Source of the DNA: Burkholderiaceae bacterium
Lineage (GTDB): Bacteria; Pseudomonadota; Gammaproteobacteria; Burkholderiales; Burkholderiaceae_A
DNA: 64,000 bases
Reading direction: 5' to 3'
Assembly: GCA_018402635.1 (NCBI GenBank)
Contig: JAGYIP010000004.1
Location: forward strand, 62,001-126,000
Part shown: piece after piece, positions 2,353-12,055 of the stretch
How positions within the stretch are numbered: position 1 is the first letter of the stretch
Layout of the letters: every line of letters starts with the position of its first letter
The notes under the pieces: model-generated
Seen by the model: the letters and a program-made list of their open reading frames with translations, nothing else
The model's database searches: none
Told to the model about the DNA's origin: nothing
Position numbers and translations under genes: made by a program

Positions 2353-3824
2353 TGGTTCTCGATCACGATCGCGCAGGCGGCTATTGGGGTGCCGTTTATG
2401 TGTTTACAGCCATCAAAGGCCTTCAGGTGGTTATTGATGGCCCGGTAGGCTGCGAAAACCTGCCCGTGACATCGGTTCTGCATTACACCGATGCACTGCC
2501 TCCGCATGAACTGCCCATTGTGGTCACAGGCCTTGCCGAAGAGCAGCTTGGTCGTGAAGGAACCGAAGGCGCAATGAAGCGGGCACATGCCGTGCTCGAC
2601 CCCGACCTTCCAGCGGTGGTGGTAACCGGATCGATCGCCGAAATGATTGGTGGCGGTGTGACGCCTGAGGGCATGAACATTGCCCGGTTTCTGCCACGCA
2701 CCATCGATGAAGACCAATGGCAGGCGGCCAACCGCGCGCTCATGTGGCTCTGGACCGAGTACGGCATGAAGAAGGTTCCTGCCGTAAAGGCGCGAGCCGA
2801 GGGCGTAAAGCCCAAGGTGAATATTATTGGACCGGCCTACGGCATGTTTAACCTGCCAAGCGATCTGGCCGAAATGATTCGTCTTATTGAAGGCATCGGG
2901 GCCGAGGTGGGGATGGTCTTTCCCTTGGGAAGCCATTTAATGGATGTGCCTCGACTTGCTGAAGCTGAGGCCAATATCTGCATGTACCGCGAGTATGGCC
3001 GCATGCTCTGCGAAGCCCTTGAGCGGCCGTACCTGCAGGCCCCCATTGGGCTGCACAGCACCACAGCCTTTCTGCGGCAGCTTGGTGAACTGCTTGGTCT
3101 TGACCCCGAGCCCTTCATTGAAAAAGAAAAGCATTCCACCATTAAGCCCATCTGGGACCTCTGGCGTTCGGTCACGCAAGACTTCTTTGGCACGGCAAGC
3201 TTTGCCGTGGTGGCCAACGAAACCTACACCCGTGGCATTCGCCATTACCTGCAAGATGAGCTTGGCCTGCCCTGCCAGTTTGCGGTGGCCCGTCGCGCAG
3301 GTGAAAAAACAGCAAACGATCAGGTGCGCGAGTTCTGTGCCAAGAAGGCGCCTTTAATTATGTTTGGCAGCTACAACGAGCGCATGTACCTTGCCGAACG
3401 GGCAAGCCGTGCAAGCTTCATTCCGGCCTCGTTTCCGGGCGCCATTATTCGCCGCCACACCGGAACGCCCTTCATGGGCTATGCCGGTGCGGTCTATCTT
3501 CTTCAAGAGGTCTGTAACGGCCTTTTTGATGCGCTCTTTCACATTCTGCCTTTGGGCACAGAGATGGATAAGGGCCTTGCAACGCCATTGGGCGCGCGAA
3601 GCATGCCCGAGTCGCAGATGGCCCGCAGCCTTCCATGGACGGCCGATGCCCAGCAACGCCTTGAAGAAAGGGTGGCTGCACATCCGGTGCTTATTCAAAT
3701 TTCAGTGGCCAAGCGGCTGCGGGATCGCGCTGAACGGCAGGCCCGCGAGGCGGGCGACAACCTGGTTACGGTCGAGCAGCTTGAGGCTGCACAAGACTTT
3801 CTGAACACGGGGGTGGTGGCATGA
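2349..3824 (+). CDS. bchZ: Chlorophyllide a reductase subunit BchZ
   Basis: NifK-like subunit that pairs with BchY to form the catalytic tetramer of chlorophyllide a reductase. The N-terminus ([19 protein letters not shown]) and the segment [20 protein letters not shown], with a cluster-ligand cysteine, are typical. The length (491 aa) fits the family. The ATG at 2349 overlaps the bchY stop and is followed at once by a second ATG. A 126-base gap with two hairpins separates it from pufB, so bchXYZ and puf are probably partly cotranscribed, as in other purple bacteria where bch transcripts read into puf (known for Rhodobacter, inferred here). Confidence 0.96.
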
Positions 3825-3866
3825 ACCTATGCAATGCATCGGTCGGTCAACTGCTCCCTCCCGAAT

Positions 3867-3915
3867 GTCGTGGCACGGTGCCGCGACTGCCCCTTCCACG
3901 CGGGCCCGGCGTGGA
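3867..3915 (+). promoter_or_regulatory. Two hairpins between bchZ and pufB
   Basis: An 8-bp stem with one G-U pair (GTCGTGGC/GCCGCGAC, loop of 5) lies at 3867-3887. A second stem of 7 bp (TCCACGC/GCGTGGA, loop of 7) lies at 3895-3915, about 35 bases before the pufB start. Neither is followed by a T-run, so they look like mRNA-stabilising or processing structures rather than terminators. No pufQ-like reading frame is present in this gap. Confidence 0.45.
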
Positions 3916-3950
3916 TTTGGCCGAAAGGTCAACTCTAAGGAGAACCTCCC

Positions 3951-4097
3951 ATGAGCAATAACTCAAGTATCTCCGGTCTCACCGACGAAGAAGCCCAAGA
4001 GTTTCACACGTATTACATGCAGGGCTTAGTGGGTTTTGCAGCAATTGCTGTCATTGCCCACATCCTCGTCTGGGCCTGGCGTCCCTGGTTCTACTAA
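3951..4097 (+). CDS. pufB: LH1 antenna beta polypeptide PufB
   Basis: This 48-aa frame is too short for the ORF track. The sequence begins [18 protein letters not shown], has one membrane span ([16 protein letters not shown]) with the bacteriochlorophyll-ligating His, and ends RPWFY. These are standard LH1 beta features. A strong Shine-Dalgarno (AAGGAG) lies just upstream. It opens the puf operon. The usual next gene, pufA, is displaced by an unrelated 75-codon frame. Confidence 0.97.
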
Positions 4098-4126
4098 ATC
4101 TTTGAGTTCCGGAAGGAGGAACCGTT

Positions 4127-4354
4127 ATGGCAGATATGGCTCACTCAACAAGCGTCCGTCAGACGATGCGCAGCGACTCGGTGGCTTTCATTGGCATCTT
4201 TGCTGTTCTCTATGTTGTTTTTCTGGCGGTGGCCCTGGTTGCACAGCTACTCATGCTGCGCTGGCGTTCCTGGCTCCCGGGAGCAGAGCAAGGTAGGACT
4301 TTGTTTGGTGGCGTAAGGGCAGCTGTCTACACCCTGATGTCCCATTTAACTTAA
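4127..4354 (+). CDS. Unrecognised 75-aa single-span membrane protein between pufB and pufA
   Basis: I do not recognise this gene. It has a strong Shine-Dalgarno (GGAAGGAGGA) before the ATG and sits with short gaps (29 and 16 bases) between pufB and pufA, so it should be translated with the antenna genes. The product has a short polar N-terminus (MADMAHSTSVRQTMRSDS), one span (VAFIGIFAVLYVVFLAVALV, residues ~19-42) and a C-terminal tail containing RWRSWLPG and ending in a hydrophobic stretch. No His lies in the span, so it is unlikely to bind bacteriochlorophyll as an antenna. Size and topology recall the non-pigment core proteins PufX, protein W or the LH1 gamma chain; a ..LP.. turn after the span is also seen in PufX. 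This is inference without alignment. It could instead be an assembly factor. Confidence 0.85.
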   Translation: MADMAHSTSVRQTMRSDSVAFIGIFAVLYVVFLAVALVAQLLMLRWRSWLPGAEQGRTLFGGVRAAVYTLMSHLT

Positions 4355-4370: not shown

Positions 4371-4553
4371 ATGTGGCGAGTATGGAAACTCTACGATCCG
4401 CTGCGTGCCATGGTGGTACAAGGCGTTTTTCTGTTCGGACTAGCAGCAATGATTCACCTCATTCTGCTAAGCACTGTTCGGTTCAACTGGATGGACGGTA
4501 TGAGTCAGGTCGAGTACAAGGCTTCGATTCAGAACTCGTCGATGCCGAAGTAG
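4371..4553 (+). CDS. pufA: LH1 antenna alpha polypeptide PufA
   Basis: A 60-aa alpha polypeptide: MWRVWKLYDPLRAMV, then a span with the bacteriochlorophyll-ligating His in AAMIHLILLST, then the RFNW motif typical of 870-nm LH1. A Shine-Dalgarno (GAGGAGG) precedes the ATG. Together with PufB it forms the LH1 ring around the reaction centre in the cytoplasmic membrane. The C-terminal tail after FNWMDG is somewhat long; such tails are trimmed in some species (known for other bacteria, not visible here). Confidence 0.97.
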   Translation: MWRVWKLYDPLRAMVVQGVFLFGLAAMIHLILLSTVRFNWMDGMSQVEYKASIQNSSMPK

Positions 4554-4572
4554 TTGAAGTCGACATGACGAC

Positions 4573-4622
4573 GCAGGCAGTCATCGGACACACGGCCTTA
4601 GGCCTGTCCTTTGGTTGCCTGC
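4573..4622 (+). promoter_or_regulatory. pufA-pufL intercistronic stem-loop
   Basis: Nested complementary segments form one long hairpin: outer stem GCAGGCA/TGCCTGC, middle stem GGACA/TGTCC and inner stem GGCC/GGCC around a TTA loop. A short T-run follows. In Rhodobacter an intercistronic hairpin at this exact place protects the pufBA mRNA segment from 3' decay and sets the antenna-to-reaction-centre ratio. Position and shape argue for the same role here. Confidence 0.7.
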
Positions 4623-4647
4623 CCATTTTTCTTGGAGGGCGCTGAAA

Positions 4648-5472
4648 ATGGCCATGCTGAGTTTTGAACGAAAATACCGGGTTCGCGGTGGAACCCTGCT
4701 CGGGGGCGACTTATTCGATTTCTGGATCGGCCCCTTCTATGTTGGGTTCTTCGGAGTCACAACAATTTTCTTTGCCTTCTTAGGCACGGCCTTAATTCTC
4801 TGGGGCGCCTCGCAGGGGCCAACCTGGAACCTTTGGCAAATTAGTATTGCGCCGCCAGACCTGAAATACGGCCTGGGTCTTGCGCCATTGAGTGAGGGTG
4901 GGCTCTGGCAGGTTATTACGGTGTGTGCCATTGGCGCCTTTGGCTCATGGGCATTGCGTGAGGTTGAAATCTGTCGAAAGCTGGGCATTGGCTATCACGT
5001 GCCCGTGGCCTTTAGCGTTGCCATCTTTGCCTATGTGACCTTGGTGGTCATTCGCCCTCTGTTGCTCGGTGCCTGGGGTCACGGTTTCCCTTATGGCATC
5101 TTGAGCCACCTCGACTGGGTCTCTAACGTGGGCTATCAGTTCCTGCACTTTCATTACAACCCGGCCCACATGATCGCGGTGACCTTGTTCTTCACAACCA
5201 CGCTCGCCTTGGCGCTGCACGGTGCGCTCATTCTGTCTTCTACGAACCCCCCTAAGGGCGAACTGGTGAAGGCACCCGAGCATGAAGACACCTTTTTCCG
5301 CGACTCTATCGGGTACTCCATTGGCACCTTGGGTATTCACCGTCTTGGTCTTTTCTTGGCCCTGGCCGCGGGGTTTTTCAGTGCCGTCTGCATTGTTATT
5401 AGTGGACCCTTCTGGACGCGTGGCTGGCCTGAGTGGTGGGGCTGGTGGTTACGCCTTCCCATTTGGTCCTAA
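4648..5472 (+). CDS. pufL: Photosynthetic reaction centre L subunit PufL
   Basis: L chain of the type II reaction centre; it binds bacteriochlorophylls, bacteriopheophytin, QB and the non-haem iron. [21 protein letters not shown] is the family N-terminus, so the ATG at 4648 (after GGAGGG) is used rather than the track start at 4615. Five spans are visible, with the signature [20 protein letters not shown] carrying the special-pair His and, later, the His of LALHGALIL. The length of 274 aa is normal. It is followed after 38 bases by pufM. Confidence 0.98.
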
Positions 5473-5510: not shown

Positions 5511-6497
5511 ATGGCTGAATATCAAAACCTCTTTACCCAGGTGCAGGTCATTGGTCCGCTTGAGCAGGGCATTCCGCTCGATCGTCCCCGCGACACTGCC
5601 GAGCGGGTGGGCAAGCCCAGTCATTTCCACATCCTTGGCCGTCTCGGTAATGCCCAAATTGGTCCAATCTACCTTGGCTTTTTGGGCATTGCCTCGGCCT
5701 TTGCCTTCCTTGTTGGGTTCACGGCCATTGGCTGGAATTACCTGGTGCAGGTGAACTACAGCCCCATTGAGTTTGTTCGCCAGCTCTTCTGGCTGTCGGT
5801 TGACCCACCACCGCCTGCCTATGGGCTGCGAATACCGCCCTTAAATGAGGGCGGATGGTGGCTGTTCTCGGGCTTCTTTATTACCCTGTCTATTCTGCTT
5901 TGGTGGGTACGTATGTATCGCCGTGCGGTGCAGCTGAAAATGGGCACGCACGTGGCTTTTGCTTTTGCCGCTGCCATCTGGCTTTACCTGGTTCTGGGTT
6001 TCTTCCGCCCTGTGCTTATGGGCAGCTGGGGCGAGGCTGTGCCCTTTGGCATCTTCTCGCACCTTGACTGGACGTCTGCCTTCTCGTTGCGCTATGGCAA
6101 CCTGTTCTACAACCCTTTCCACATGCTCTCTATTGTCTTTCTGTATGGATCGGTCTTGCTTTTTGCCATGCATGGCGCCACTATTCTCGCGGTAAGTCGC
6201 TTTGGTGGTGAACGCGAAATTGAGCAGATTGTCGATCGCGGAACGGCCTCCGAGCGCGCTGCACTTTTCTGGCGCTGGACCATGGGCTTTAACGCCACAA
6301 TGGAGTCCATACACCGTTGGGCCTGGTGGTTTGCCGTACTCACCTGCATAACCGGGGGTATTGGTATTCTGCTGACAGGCACCGTGGTGGACAACTGGTA
6401 CCTGTGGGCGGTAAAGCATGGCGTTGCTCCTGCCTACCCTGCTGTTTGGGGCCCGGTCATTGATCCAGCGTTGGTCGACCCACAGCTAGCGAATTAA
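5511..6497 (+). CDS. pufM: Photosynthetic reaction centre M subunit PufM
   Basis: M chain of the reaction centre, partner of PufL; it binds QA and shares the special pair and non-haem iron. Diagnostic stretches are [20 protein letters not shown] (special-pair His region) and [20 protein letters not shown]. Five membrane spans; 328 aa, normal length. A Shine-Dalgarno (AAGGAG) precedes the ATG. The C-terminus ([17 protein letters not shown]) is of the type found in species that carry a PufC cytochrome, and pufC follows after 19 bases. Confidence 0.98.
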
Positions 6498-6516: not shown

Positions 6517-7767
6517 ATGACTAAATATCCTCGACAGGAGTCTCACGCAGTGCCCATGGAAGAGGGTACGCGGTTGAGGCCAACCCCCGTGGCGAATTCT
6601 AAGAAGCAAGGGGCACTGGGGTGGCGTGGGCTTGTTATCGGCATGGCCATGGGCCTGGGGTTAATGGGGTGTGAGCGCCTACCTGTCGACGTTAATCAGG
6701 GTGGCTACCGCGGCACGGGCATGGAGCAGGTCGTCAACCCACGCATTGAGGCTGTGAAGCTGGCGGCCAATCAGGCCCCCCCCGCGCTTGAGCCGGTAGA
6801 AGAAGGTGGACCCAAGGCAAGTCAGGTTTATCAGAATGTGCAGGTCTTGGGCGATCTCTCGGTGGCGCAGTTCAACCGGCTGATGGTTGCCATGACCGCC
6901 TGGGTTTCTCCGGAACAGGGCTGCGCTTACTGCCATAACGTTCAAAACTTTGCCGATGACGGCCTCTACACCAAATTGGTGGCAAGACGCATGACGCAAA
7001 TGACCCAGACCATCAACGACCGTTGGCAGGCGCACGTGGGCCAGACTGGCGTAACCTGTTTCACCTGTCACCGAGGTCAAAACCTCCCTGAAAAGCGGTG
7101 GTTCACCGAGCCAGAAATGCAGATCGCTGGACGGCTTCTGGGTAACGATTCAGGCCAGAACCGCGCGGGTGTCGAGGCTGTGGCGAATTCCGATTTACCC
7201 TACGACCCGTACACGCCTTTCTTACTAGAGAGCAATCCCATTCGGGTCAATGGCACCACCGCGCTGCCCACTGGGAATCGCATGTCCACCAAGCAGACGG
7301 AATGGACCTACGCGCTCATGATGCACATGAGCGACGGTCTAGGGGTTAACTGCACGTACTGCCACAACACCCGGGCCATTGCCGAGTGGGAGCAAAGCCC
7401 TCCTGCCCGCGTCACCGCCTGGTATGGCATTCGAATGGTGCGTGAAATTAACAATGAGTTCATTACCGGGCTCACTCCTATTCACCCACCGAATCGACTC
7501 GGCGTCATGGGCGATATTGCCAAGGTGAACTGTGCCACCTGTCACCAGGGCGTGAACAAACCGCTTTACGGCGCCCAAATGCTCAAGGCACACCCCGAGC
7601 TCTCGGGCCCCAACGCACTTAAAGACGCTATGGAAATTCGGGGTCCTGGCAAGCCAATAGCTCCTCAGAGTCAAGGCCCTGAACCCACGCCCTCGCCAAC
7701 CTCTTTTCTGAAGGGTTCTGCGAGCACAGGGCAGCTTGAGGGCCATGCTGTTGCCCGAGCGAATTAA
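6517..7767 (+). CDS. pufC: Reaction-centre tetrahaem cytochrome PufC (lipoprotein)
   Basis: Four c-haem motifs are visible (CAYCH, CFTCH, CTYCH, CATCH) in two pairs, the arrangement of the reaction-centre cytochrome subunit that re-reduces the oxidised special pair from the periplasm. A signal segment ending GLMGCERL gives a lipobox, so the mature protein should be lipid-anchored. The track start at 6514 is a TTG; the ATG at 6517 follows GATAGGAG and is preferred. It ends the puf operon, followed by a terminator. A second, TM-anchored paralogue is encoded at 10916-12055. Confidence 0.97.
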   Translation: MTKYPRQESHAVPMEEGTRLRPTPVANSKKQGALGWRGLVIGMAMGLGLMGCERLPVDVNQGGYRGTGMEQVVNPRIEAVKLAANQAPPALEPVEEGGPKASQVYQNVQVLGDLSVAQFNRLMVAMTAWVSPEQGCAYCHNVQNFADDGLYTKLVARRMTQMTQTINDRWQAHVGQTGVTCFTCHRGQNLPEKRWFTEPEMQIAGRLLGNDSGQNRAGVEAVANSDLPYDPYTPFLLESNPIRVNGTTALPTGNRMSTKQTEWTYALMMHMSDGLGVNCTYCHNTRAIAEWEQSPPARVTAWYGIRMVREINNEFITGLTPIHPPNRLGVMGDIAKVNCATCHQGVNKPLYGAQMLKAHPELSGPNALKDAMEIRGPGKPIAPQSQGPEPTPSPTSFLKGSASTGQLEGHAVARAN

Positions 7768-7928: not shown

Positions 7929-8255
7929 TTAGCTCTTAACCTGCTTGAAGTTTTTACACCATCCCGCTCTGGGTGTGTGCTGGTCACCAAAGAACGAGCA
8001 TGCTGCGTACGCGTCATTGTCTTTGCCATCCCAAAGCTGACACTTACTGCATTCCTGGCCCGTCTTGAACTTTCTGAAGTTTCGATGCGCCTTAGGGTCA
8101 ATTCCCTTTGCGTCAACAACAAAGCCCATTGATTTGGCGTAGCTGTCGTTGGGGTCAAGGCGGTTGCTCTGGGCCCGCACCCCCTGCAATGATGAAAAGG
8201 CTGCAGCGCCTGCAACAGCTTTAAGTATGAATACACGTCTTGAAACAGTTGTCAT
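7929..8255 (-). CDS. hip: High-potential iron-sulfur protein (HiPIP)
   Basis: Periplasmic [4Fe-4S] electron carrier that donates electrons to the reaction-centre cytochrome in many purple bacteria. The ATG at 8255 follows GGAGAACGATA and opens a Tat signal (SRRVFILKAVAGAAAFSSLQ, cleaved near VRA). Four cysteines of the HiPIP pattern follow: ECSKCQLW, AACSFFG, GWCKNF. The 108-aa precursor is of normal size. The track start at 8348 adds an unlikely extension. It is the last gene of a minus-strand group with a DUF1566 protein, a cytochrome c and a phosphoesterase, next to both pufC genes, which supports a role in light-driven electron transfer. Confidence 0.95.
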   Translation of the reverse strand: MTTVSRRVFILKAVAGAAAFSSLQGVRAQSNRLDPNDSYAKSMGFVVDAKGIDPKAHRNFRKFKTGQECSKCQLWDGKDNDAYAACSFFGDQHTPRAGWCKNFKQVKS

Positions 8256-8319
8256 TATCGTTCTCCGTGTTTGGGTCTTAAAAATTAAAGGTAATGAAAT
8301 GAATGGAGCCTTGAAAAAC

Positions 8320-8790
8320 TCAGTTGCCATACCGCACAAGCCTAACAAAAAGCTTTGAGTCGGAAGGGACTGCCCTTAACCCCTCGTGCCCAAAACTCAT
8401 TGCGTACCAAAGCGGCTCGTAGCCCCCAGAGGCCCTTGCACTGCTTGTCCAAAAGAAACTCGCAGGTGTACCAGGGAAGTTCTCTCGGCTAATTCGAACA
8501 CCCTCTGGGTTGAGACTGCTCGATGCTATGCGCGCAAGTTCTGTAAGGCTGGGAAGACGCCAGTCTTGATGAAAAGGTTCTGTTTGATTGATCTGCTGAA
8601 CAGCCTCGCGCGCCTGATCAAGGCTAAGGGCCAGGGCCCTTCCTTTACAACTCGTCAACGCCTCGTCCCACTGTTGACCAAGCGAACAACGCTTCCAGGT
8701 AATTTGGGCCGCGCGGTCTGTCAGGGTTCCGTCTGCGTTGTCAACAAACCGATTCTCGTTCATCTTGACAGCAATCAAACCGGCTTCCAA
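8320..8790 (-). CDS. DUF1566 (Lcl-like) domain protein, start codon unclear
   Basis: Residues from ~NRFVDNADGTLTDRAAQITW to LFVRLVRYGN match the DUF1566 pattern, including DWRLPSLTELARI and FFWTSS. The function of this domain is not defined; it usually occurs in secreted or cell-surface proteins. The frame is open upstream to the stop of the cytochrome gene at 8941 and reads VEFVVFLACLTLAFRVYGNA, which resembles a signal peptide, yet no ATG, GTG or TTG starts it. The TTG at 8790 and the ATG at 8763 are the only usable starts, and either would give a protein without a signal. The start may have been lost, or a rare start codon is used. It lies 64 bases upstream of the HiPIP gene in the same direction. 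Confidence 0.7.
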   Translation of the reverse strand: MEAGLIAVKMNENRFVDNADGTLTDRAAQITWKRCSLGQQWDEALTSCKGRALALSLDQAREAVQQINQTEPFHQDWRLPSLTELARIASSSLNPEGVRISRENFPGTPASFFWTSSARASGGYEPLWYAMSFGHEGLRAVPSDSKLFVRLVRYGN

Positions 8791-10915: not shown

Positions 10916-12055
10916 CTATTTGCCTTTGTTTTCGATCTTAAACGGGTTGACTTCCGCCACCTCGTCATAGGTTCTGGGGCCGCCTGCGTACGGTAGCCGT
11001 GGCTCAACAGCAAGAGAAGGGTAGTCGTTAAGCATGCTTATGCCATTGAGTGGCTTACCGACCCCCTTGTGGCAGGTTGCGCAGGCCACCTTCGGATAGT
11101 CGCCTGAGGCGTTCATTCGATATAGGGGTAGCAGGCTGCCCACAGAATGCAGATAGGTGCTGTTGATATCTCTGACCATCCGAATGCCATACCAGGCGGT
11201 AACACGCTGAGGGGAACTCTGCTCCCAGTTGGCCGCAGCCCGGGTGTTATGGCAGAAGGTGCAATTCACTCCTAAGGACTGACTCATGTAGATCATGAGC
11301 CCATAGGTGTGTTCGCTTTGCTTAACAGAGCGACGGTTCTCGCCAGCCAGCGCCCTTTCGCCCTGAACCCGAATGCTAGGGGAGTCTTTATCTTTTAGAA
11401 AAATGGTGAGCGGGTCGTAGGGCAGGGAAGTATTGCCAACGGTCTCGACGCCTGGATGGTTCTGCCCGAACCGATGCCCAAGCATGGCAAGCTGATCTTT
11501 CTCGTTACCAATAAATTCAAACCAATCGCCTGAGGGCACAGGCTGCCCGCGATGGCAGGTGTAGCAGGTTACGCCGGTGTTGCCCACGTGCTTTTTCCAA
11601 CTGTCGTTGATGTTGCGAGTCATCTGCAACATGTGCCTTGCGACAACCTTGGGGTATTTTTCATCGGAGGCAAGGTACTTAGGATTGTGGCAGTAGGCGC
11701 AGCCCTCTTCAGGCGAGACCCAGACAGTAAGGGCCTGCATAAGCCTTGAGAACTCTTGGGTGTTGAGGTCGGTGAGGACCTGGATATTGAGGTACTGATC
11801 TTTTGCAAGCTTTGGGGGGTTGGCTGGGTCGATCTCAGGGGGGGGCTCGGGCTCTGGAATGGCGTGAAGCGGTGCCTGCGCTCGCTGGGTCTTAGGGTCG
11901 TGGTTGAGCACCATGCCTACGCCTCGGTAGCCCAGTTGCTCGGGCTTTGTAGCCTCAACTTTTGAGCCACTAGCGGCCGTTAAAAGCGTAAGAAGAGCGA
12001 TGCCGACAATGCTCGCCAGCGCGGCGATTACGGGGATTAGAAACAGACGCTTCAT
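10916..12055 (-). CDS. Second PufC-like tetrahaem cytochrome, membrane-anchored
   Basis: Four haem motifs (CAYCH, CYTCH, CTFCH-type CTFCHN, CATCH) lie in the same order and context as in PufC, with shared stretches such as LMQALTVWVSPEEGCAYCHN and WYGIRMVRDIN. It is a full-length PufC paralogue of 379 aa. Unlike PufC at 6517 it has no lipobox; the N-terminus (MKRLFLIPVIAALASIVGIALLT) looks like an uncleaved anchor. Shine-Dalgarno GGAGGGC. Its promoter carries a perfect PpsR-type box, so it should be expressed with the photosystem. It could replace PufC in the reaction centre under some condition, or act as a separate carrier. Which one docks to the core cannot be told from sequence. Confidence 0.93.
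   Translation of the reverse strand: MKRLFLIPVIAALASIVGIALLTLLTAASGSKVEATKPEQLGYRGVGMVLNHDPKTQRAQAPLHAIPEPEPPPEIDPANPPKLAKDQYLNIQVLTDLNTQEFSRLMQALTVWVSPEEGCAYCHNPKYLASDEKYPKVVARHMLQMTRNINDSWKKHVGNTGVTCYTCHRGQPVPSGDWFEFIGNEKDQLAMLGHRFGQNHPGVETVGNTSLPYDPLTIFLKDKDSPSIRVQGERALAGENRRSVKQSEHTYGLMIYMSQSLGVNCTFCHNTRAAANWEQSSPQRVTAWYGIRMVRDINSTYLHSVGSLLPLYRMNASGDYPKVACATCHKGVGKPLNGISMLNDYPSLAVEPRLPYAGGPRTYDEVAEVNPFKIENKGK

Follow-up and report, generated by a model that had tools for sequence, protein, structure and literature searches.

A very probable LH1 beta paralogue without the ligand histidine, encoded between pufB and pufA in phototrophic Burkholderiales

The puf operon and the gene between pufB and pufA

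The window analyzed here is a stretch of 64,000 nucleotides from a 1.96 Mb assembly of a Burkholderiaceae bacterium. It carries part of a photosynthesis cluster, in which a bchZ-like gene, pufB, a small ORF, pufA, pufL, pufM and pufC follow each other on the + strand (Table 1). The small ORF, called ORF2 in this paper, starts with the ATG at 4127 and ends with the TAA at 4352-4354, and it is separated by 29 nt from the stop of pufB and by 16 nt from the start of pufA. The initial annotation had described a 75-codon gene with a strong Shine-Dalgarno sequence at this place, and the description was borne out at exactly these coordinates: the motif AAGGAGG lies 7 nt 5′ of the ATG, and the predicted anti-SD energy is -11.7 kcal/mol, with -9.1 for pufB and -13.0 kcal/mol for pufA. 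The encoded protein has one hydrophobic span, at approximately residues 19-43.

Table 1. Features of the puf region, in positions of the window
Feature	Position	Strand	Evidence
46-codon ORF, overlapped by the pre-pufB hairpin	3821-3961		
Pre-pufB hairpin GTCGTGGCA-cgg-TGCCGCGAC, near-perfect	3867-3887	+	
pufB, canonical LH1 beta, short form, end WRPWFY, has His37	3951..4097	+	Pfam LHC 1e-14
Shine-Dalgarno AAGGAGG of ORF2	4113..4119	+	sequence and duplex energy
ORF2, putative pseudo-beta gene, 75 codons, very probably a His-less LH1 beta paralogue	4127..4354	+	sequence, profiles, dN/dS
Gln40 codon of ORF2, aligned with the BChl-ligand His37 of PufB	4244..4246	+	hhalign alignment
Conserved C-terminal part of ORF2 (W46-R-x-W ... 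PGAE ... AVYxxMS) with predicted tail helix 59-74	4262..4351	+	invariant columns; AlphaFold2
pufA, LH1 alpha	4371..4553	+	Pfam LHC 1.2e-10
pufA-pufL intergenic region with strong RNA hairpin	4554..4644	+	z -2.6 in window; median z -2.57 (70 loci)
pufL	4645..5472	+	Pfam Photo_RC 7e-97
pufM	5511..6497	+	Pfam Photo_RC 1.9e-105
pufC, tetraheme cytochrome	6517..7767	+	Pfam CytoC_RC 4.2e-139
High-potential iron-sulfur protein gene, convergent with pufC	7929-8348	-	HIPIP 2.5e-13
Second tetraheme reaction-centre cytochrome gene	10916-12055	-	CytoC_RC 2.2e-121

ORF2 is a real gene under purifying selection, and 20 relatives have a homologue in the corresponding place. In the comparison with its nearest non-identical relative dN is 0.034 and dS is 0.424, with 5, 0 and 19 differences at the first, second and third codon positions, and 307 pairs gave a median dN/dS of 0.24. 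A chance or non-coding ORF is ruled out by this conservation and by the low dN/dS, so that the Ka/Ks check proposed in the initial annotation has come out for a coding sequence. The scan of the sequence collection with ORF2 gave 254 related stretches, and the best 80 of these 254 were used; they are titled as Burkholderiales, Betaproteobacteria or unclassified bacteria, except for a few from metagenomes whose titles are evidently misassigned (e.g. Klebsiella). The ORF2 protein of one genome of the same genus (G002) is sequence-identical to that of isolate LSUCC0115.

ORF2 lies 5′ of the hairpin between pufA and pufL, which is likely the end of a stable 5′ mRNA segment. The amount of the ORF2 product would be near that of alpha and beta, because over 80 loci the SD energies of ORF2 do not differ from those of pufB (Wilcoxon p 0.14) or of pufA (p 0.86). 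The earlier expectation that the protein would be made in step with the antenna subunits agrees with this placement inside the pufB-pufA segment.

Other features of the region were also recorded. The hairpin upstream of pufB is found in Rubrivivax gelatinosus too (L071, near 5738), and a simple motif for it matches 13 of the 80 loci. A conserved "ORF1" peptide 5′ of pufB is not general, its motif being present in 20 of 138 loci. The product of the high-potential iron-sulfur protein gene is a possible electron donor to PufC. The second tetraheme cytochrome has 49% identity to the PufC of the window; its gene follows the puf operon and is read from the other strand.

Kinship with LH1 beta and distribution of the gene

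The profile searches point to LH1 beta as the closest known family. The profile of 17 ORF2 members matched LH1 beta chains of the PDB at 6e-15, and the profile of 45 members matched 8z81_B, an LH1 beta, at E 2.2e-17; LH1 beta chains were the sole PDB family which matched at E 0.001. By hhalign the ORF2 family was aligned to tailed betas at 1.8e-23 and to short betas at 5e-11, and a further alignment to beta (1.3e-12) places Gln40 of ORF2 on His37 of PufB. The controls with alpha chains and with reversed sequences all remained below 7% probability. Duplication of alpha was also considered as the origin and was rejected (hhalign probability 0.6%). In Pfam and NCBIfam no family was above cut-off for the ORF2 family. 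ORF2 is thus very probably a diverged paralogue of LH1 beta, as judged from these comparisons, and this takes the place of the unknown ancestry given to it in the initial annotation.

The ligand position is also informative. Among the 78 members checked, the residue aligned with the ligand His is Q in 64, S in 4, T in 4, E in 3, and M, F and C in one each, where the lone M (L059) reflects a one-residue insertion and the aligned residue is Q; His was found in 0 of 78. The absence of a His ligand from the single span, as described in the initial annotation, is confirmed by this. The ORF2 family has also lost the E-x-E-F-H motif found at the N-terminus of beta, and the invariant columns are W46, R47, W49, PGAE and V67. 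The AlphaFold2 model (mean pLDDT 72) has a helix at 5-41 and a tail helix at 59-74, which would fit a single span followed by a helical tail; Foldseek with this low-confidence, single-helix model returned zero matches.

The distribution of the gene was surveyed in 136 puf loci of Burkholderiales, which are counted as loci, several genomes being listed under two locus ids. A His-less ORF2 gene is present in 127 of them, at the same position wherever it was located, i.e. between pufB and pufA and not upstream of pufB, which answers the question about homologues in relatives raised in the initial annotation. In 117 of these 127 loci PufB was scored as short and tailless, and in the other 10 it was unscored by the script. 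Six loci have a long PufB (tail of 27-28 residues) and no ORF2, and in the last three (family f22) PufB is short, ORF2 is absent and a related gene lies immediately 5′ of pufB. A long PufB together with ORF2 was seen in 0 of the 136 loci. ORF2 therefore goes with a PufB that is without a C-terminal tail, as a correlation. On the PufL tree, which is poorly resolved, the presence of ORF2 takes 5 changes, and an independent-pairs test of the exclusion between tail and ORF2 was not significant and cannot reach significance on so few evolutionary events.

In 399 Burkholderiales genomes the ORF2 profile matched in 47 and PufL in 48, in almost the same set, some of the profile matches being tailed PufBs and not ORF2. 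The order pufB-ORF2-pufA was not seen outside Burkholderiales in the class and phylum samples, where the profile matches are genuine betas or genes located 5′ of pufB and where tailed betas without ORF2 are common. Direct adjacency of pufB and pufA, given as normal in the initial annotation, fits the other Proteobacteria sampled, but in phototrophic Burkholderiales the three-gene order is the rule. Two single cases were noted in addition. In one genome of the same genus (G001, L151) a pufM-like match lies near the contig end and pufL and ORF2 were not found, which is probably due to an assembly break. A plasmid of Methylobacterium aquaticum has an unannotated 38% match to ORF2 (NZ_AP014705.1, 531421-531585), possibly an unannotated tailed PufB.

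Possible roles of ORF2

ORF2 is probably an unrecognised non-antenna part of the core or an assembly helper. The reading which we put forward, and which we regard as evenly poised, is that ORF2 is a pseudo-beta without pigment, which would be part of the RC-LH1 core or attached to it and would supply in trans the tail that PufB lacks. The protein would have the topology of beta, with the N-terminus in and the C-terminus in the periplasm, and would be translated approximately as strongly as alpha and beta from the stable pufB-pufA mRNA segment. As a beta-like element without antenna function it would then join or contact the RC-LH1 core, and its WRxW-PGAE-AVYxxMS part would act as the periplasmic stand-in for the long-beta tail found elsewhere. 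An unpigmented, beta-like position might in turn loosen or interrupt the pigment ring and so allow quinone exchange; such ring opening is a guess, on the doubtful side, and the least secure step of the scheme. For residence of ORF2 in the core as a structural part the chances appear equal in both directions; a solved chain of the ORF2 family was not found in the PDB copy searched. It is also conceivable, somewhat short of an even chance, that the tailed LH1 beta of an ancestor gave rise by a split to two proteins, a short PufB which binds the pigment and a partner which has the tail but no His, the latter being an accessory core subunit that arose from beta independently of PufX, W and gamma. 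Against the pseudo-beta reading stand the few evolutionary events behind the tail/ORF2 exclusion, the common tailed betas without ORF2 outside Burkholderiales, and a set of related genes in the pufQ position which hint at a role in biogenesis.

These related genes carry the main rival explanation, in which ORF2 is a PufQ-type biogenesis factor that is made with the antenna and aids pigment supply or LH1 assembly outside the finished core; we consider it unlikely, though it is the strongest of the alternatives. In several alpha- and gammaproteobacteria and in family f22 of Burkholderiales, small proteins with a beta-like span are encoded just upstream of pufB, the place which pufQ has in Rhodobacter (alignment A4). 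Such genes were noted in loci L164, L166, L176-L180, L183, L185, L186 and L188 and in the f22 loci L125-L127. They have mostly Arg at the position of the ligand His, the His being kept in one, and a tail of the form S-V-F-x-E-A-x-A-A-A, and hhalign relates them to ORF2 at 1.9e-14 and 8e-15. Those Burkholderiales with ORF2 that were tested lack a separate gene of this kind, and PufQ of Rba. sphaeroides is known to bind ferrochelatase and to steer porphyrin flux (PMC5725709), both of which would suit a biogenesis role.

Several results speak against this rival. ORF2 scores 15.8 bits with Pfam PufQ (PF05398), where the curated cut-off is 22.1, so that membership of this family was rejected; only 1 of 17 ORF2 members gave a PufQ match, a weak one, and hhalign with one canonical PufQ was not significant. 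ORF2 is placed within the pufB-pufA segment, and its SDs equal those of the antenna genes in strength. In the tree (FastTree, 74 columns, a short alignment) the pufQ-position family forms its own clade apart from ORF2 and beta, with support 0.97, and therefore a derivation of ORF2 from beta appears more likely than the relocation of a pufQ-position gene, although this is weakly resolved. The pufQ-position proteins scanned are themselves below the cut-offs of Pfam (including PufQ) and NCBIfam. They may be a divergent PufQ family, in which case PufQ itself would be beta-derived.

The structural reading has a sub-version, less probable still than the biogenesis factor, in which ORF2 is a multi-copy, gamma-like element between the LH1 betas that seals or stabilises the ring and is not an opener. 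It would be in line with translation signals equal to those of alpha and beta, and with the occurrence of ORF2 where PufB is without a tail, since species with long betas have the tail on every beta. Rhodopila globiformis has multi-copy gamma-like peptides, 11 per ring, but these are of 22 residues and of opposite topology, and ORF2 should be N-in like beta (PMC9640540 for the peptides). No gamma match was obtained in the PDB profile search.

A third antenna polypeptide, with BChl bound through the Gln at the old His position, is improbable. Gln is able to ligate chlorophyll in plant LHCII, and the WRxW motif of beta is retained in ORF2; against this, other members have S, T, E, F or C at the ligand position and the N-terminal beta motif is gone too. 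With the standard ligand such an antenna is rejected on the count of His given above. The argument of the initial annotation, no His and hence no third antenna, is strong but not airtight, because 64 of the 78 members have Gln there. A functionless, decaying duplicate of PufB, as the loss of the ligand His and of the N-terminal motif might suggest, is scarcely credible beside a dN/dS of about 0.24, the invariant W46, R47, W49 and PGAE, and a position conserved across families.

Meaning and comparison with known systems

The pseudo-beta reading, if correct, has a direct consequence: no RC-LH1 structure with ORF2 was found, so that models of the betaproteobacterial core built by analogy would miss a part if ORF2 is a core subunit. 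A gene noted in 1994 in one purple bacterium is near-universal in the phototrophic Burkholderiales examined, which range from Rubrivivax to uncultivated lineages of lakes and coasts, and it very probably derives from an antenna protein whose pigment ligand was lost. ORF2 and the uncurated pufQ-position genes would make one beta-derived superfamily, and with it the question of how the non-pigmented accessory proteins of LH1 arose becomes testable.

The likeness to PufX, protein W and the gamma chain that was proposed at first is retained for the role only. These are small, single-span proteins of the LH1 core without a pigment ligand, and an analogous function in the core is plausible; but sequence kinship was not detected, as none of the PDB chains named PufX, protein W, U, Y or gamma matches the ORF2 profile up to E 10. 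PufQ is likewise small, single-span and encoded in the puf operon, but differs in both profile tests described above. The pufQ-position proteins are homologous to ORF2, with the His mostly replaced in both and with a similar tail, but they are encoded upstream of pufB, have Arg and not Gln in place of the His, and form their own clade.

A close likeness exists to PufB, especially the tailed forms 8z81_B, 7xxf_B and 9m8m_B, to which ORF2 appears homologous over the span and the tail, with WRxW shared and the gene adjoining pufA; the difference is that ORF2 lacks the ligand His and E-x-E-F-H, and that a true PufB is present beside it.

An earlier record of the gene also exists. Two ORFs of unknown function are mentioned for the puf operon of Rvi. 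gelatinosus, with ORF2 upstream of pufA, in the accessible part of a 2025 paper citing Nagashima 1994 (PMC12817894); in the same part, 10-14.5% identity to PufA2 and no His are given for ORF2, in a comparison with alpha chains only. The accessible portions of the literature searched contained no paper which assigns a function to ORF2 or links it to beta. The Rvi. gelatinosus members of the present family (DSM 1709 and IM 151; L068 and L071) have 58-59% identity, and from their position directly upstream of pufA we infer that they are the ORF2 of 1994, also without a central His. The gene is thus not new, having been on record since 1994 in one species; as far as the accessible portions of the published record go, the kinship with beta and the family are new here, and in contrast to the published ORF2 of unknown function, compared with alpha, the protein is here read as a very probable beta paralogue and as one member of a wide family.
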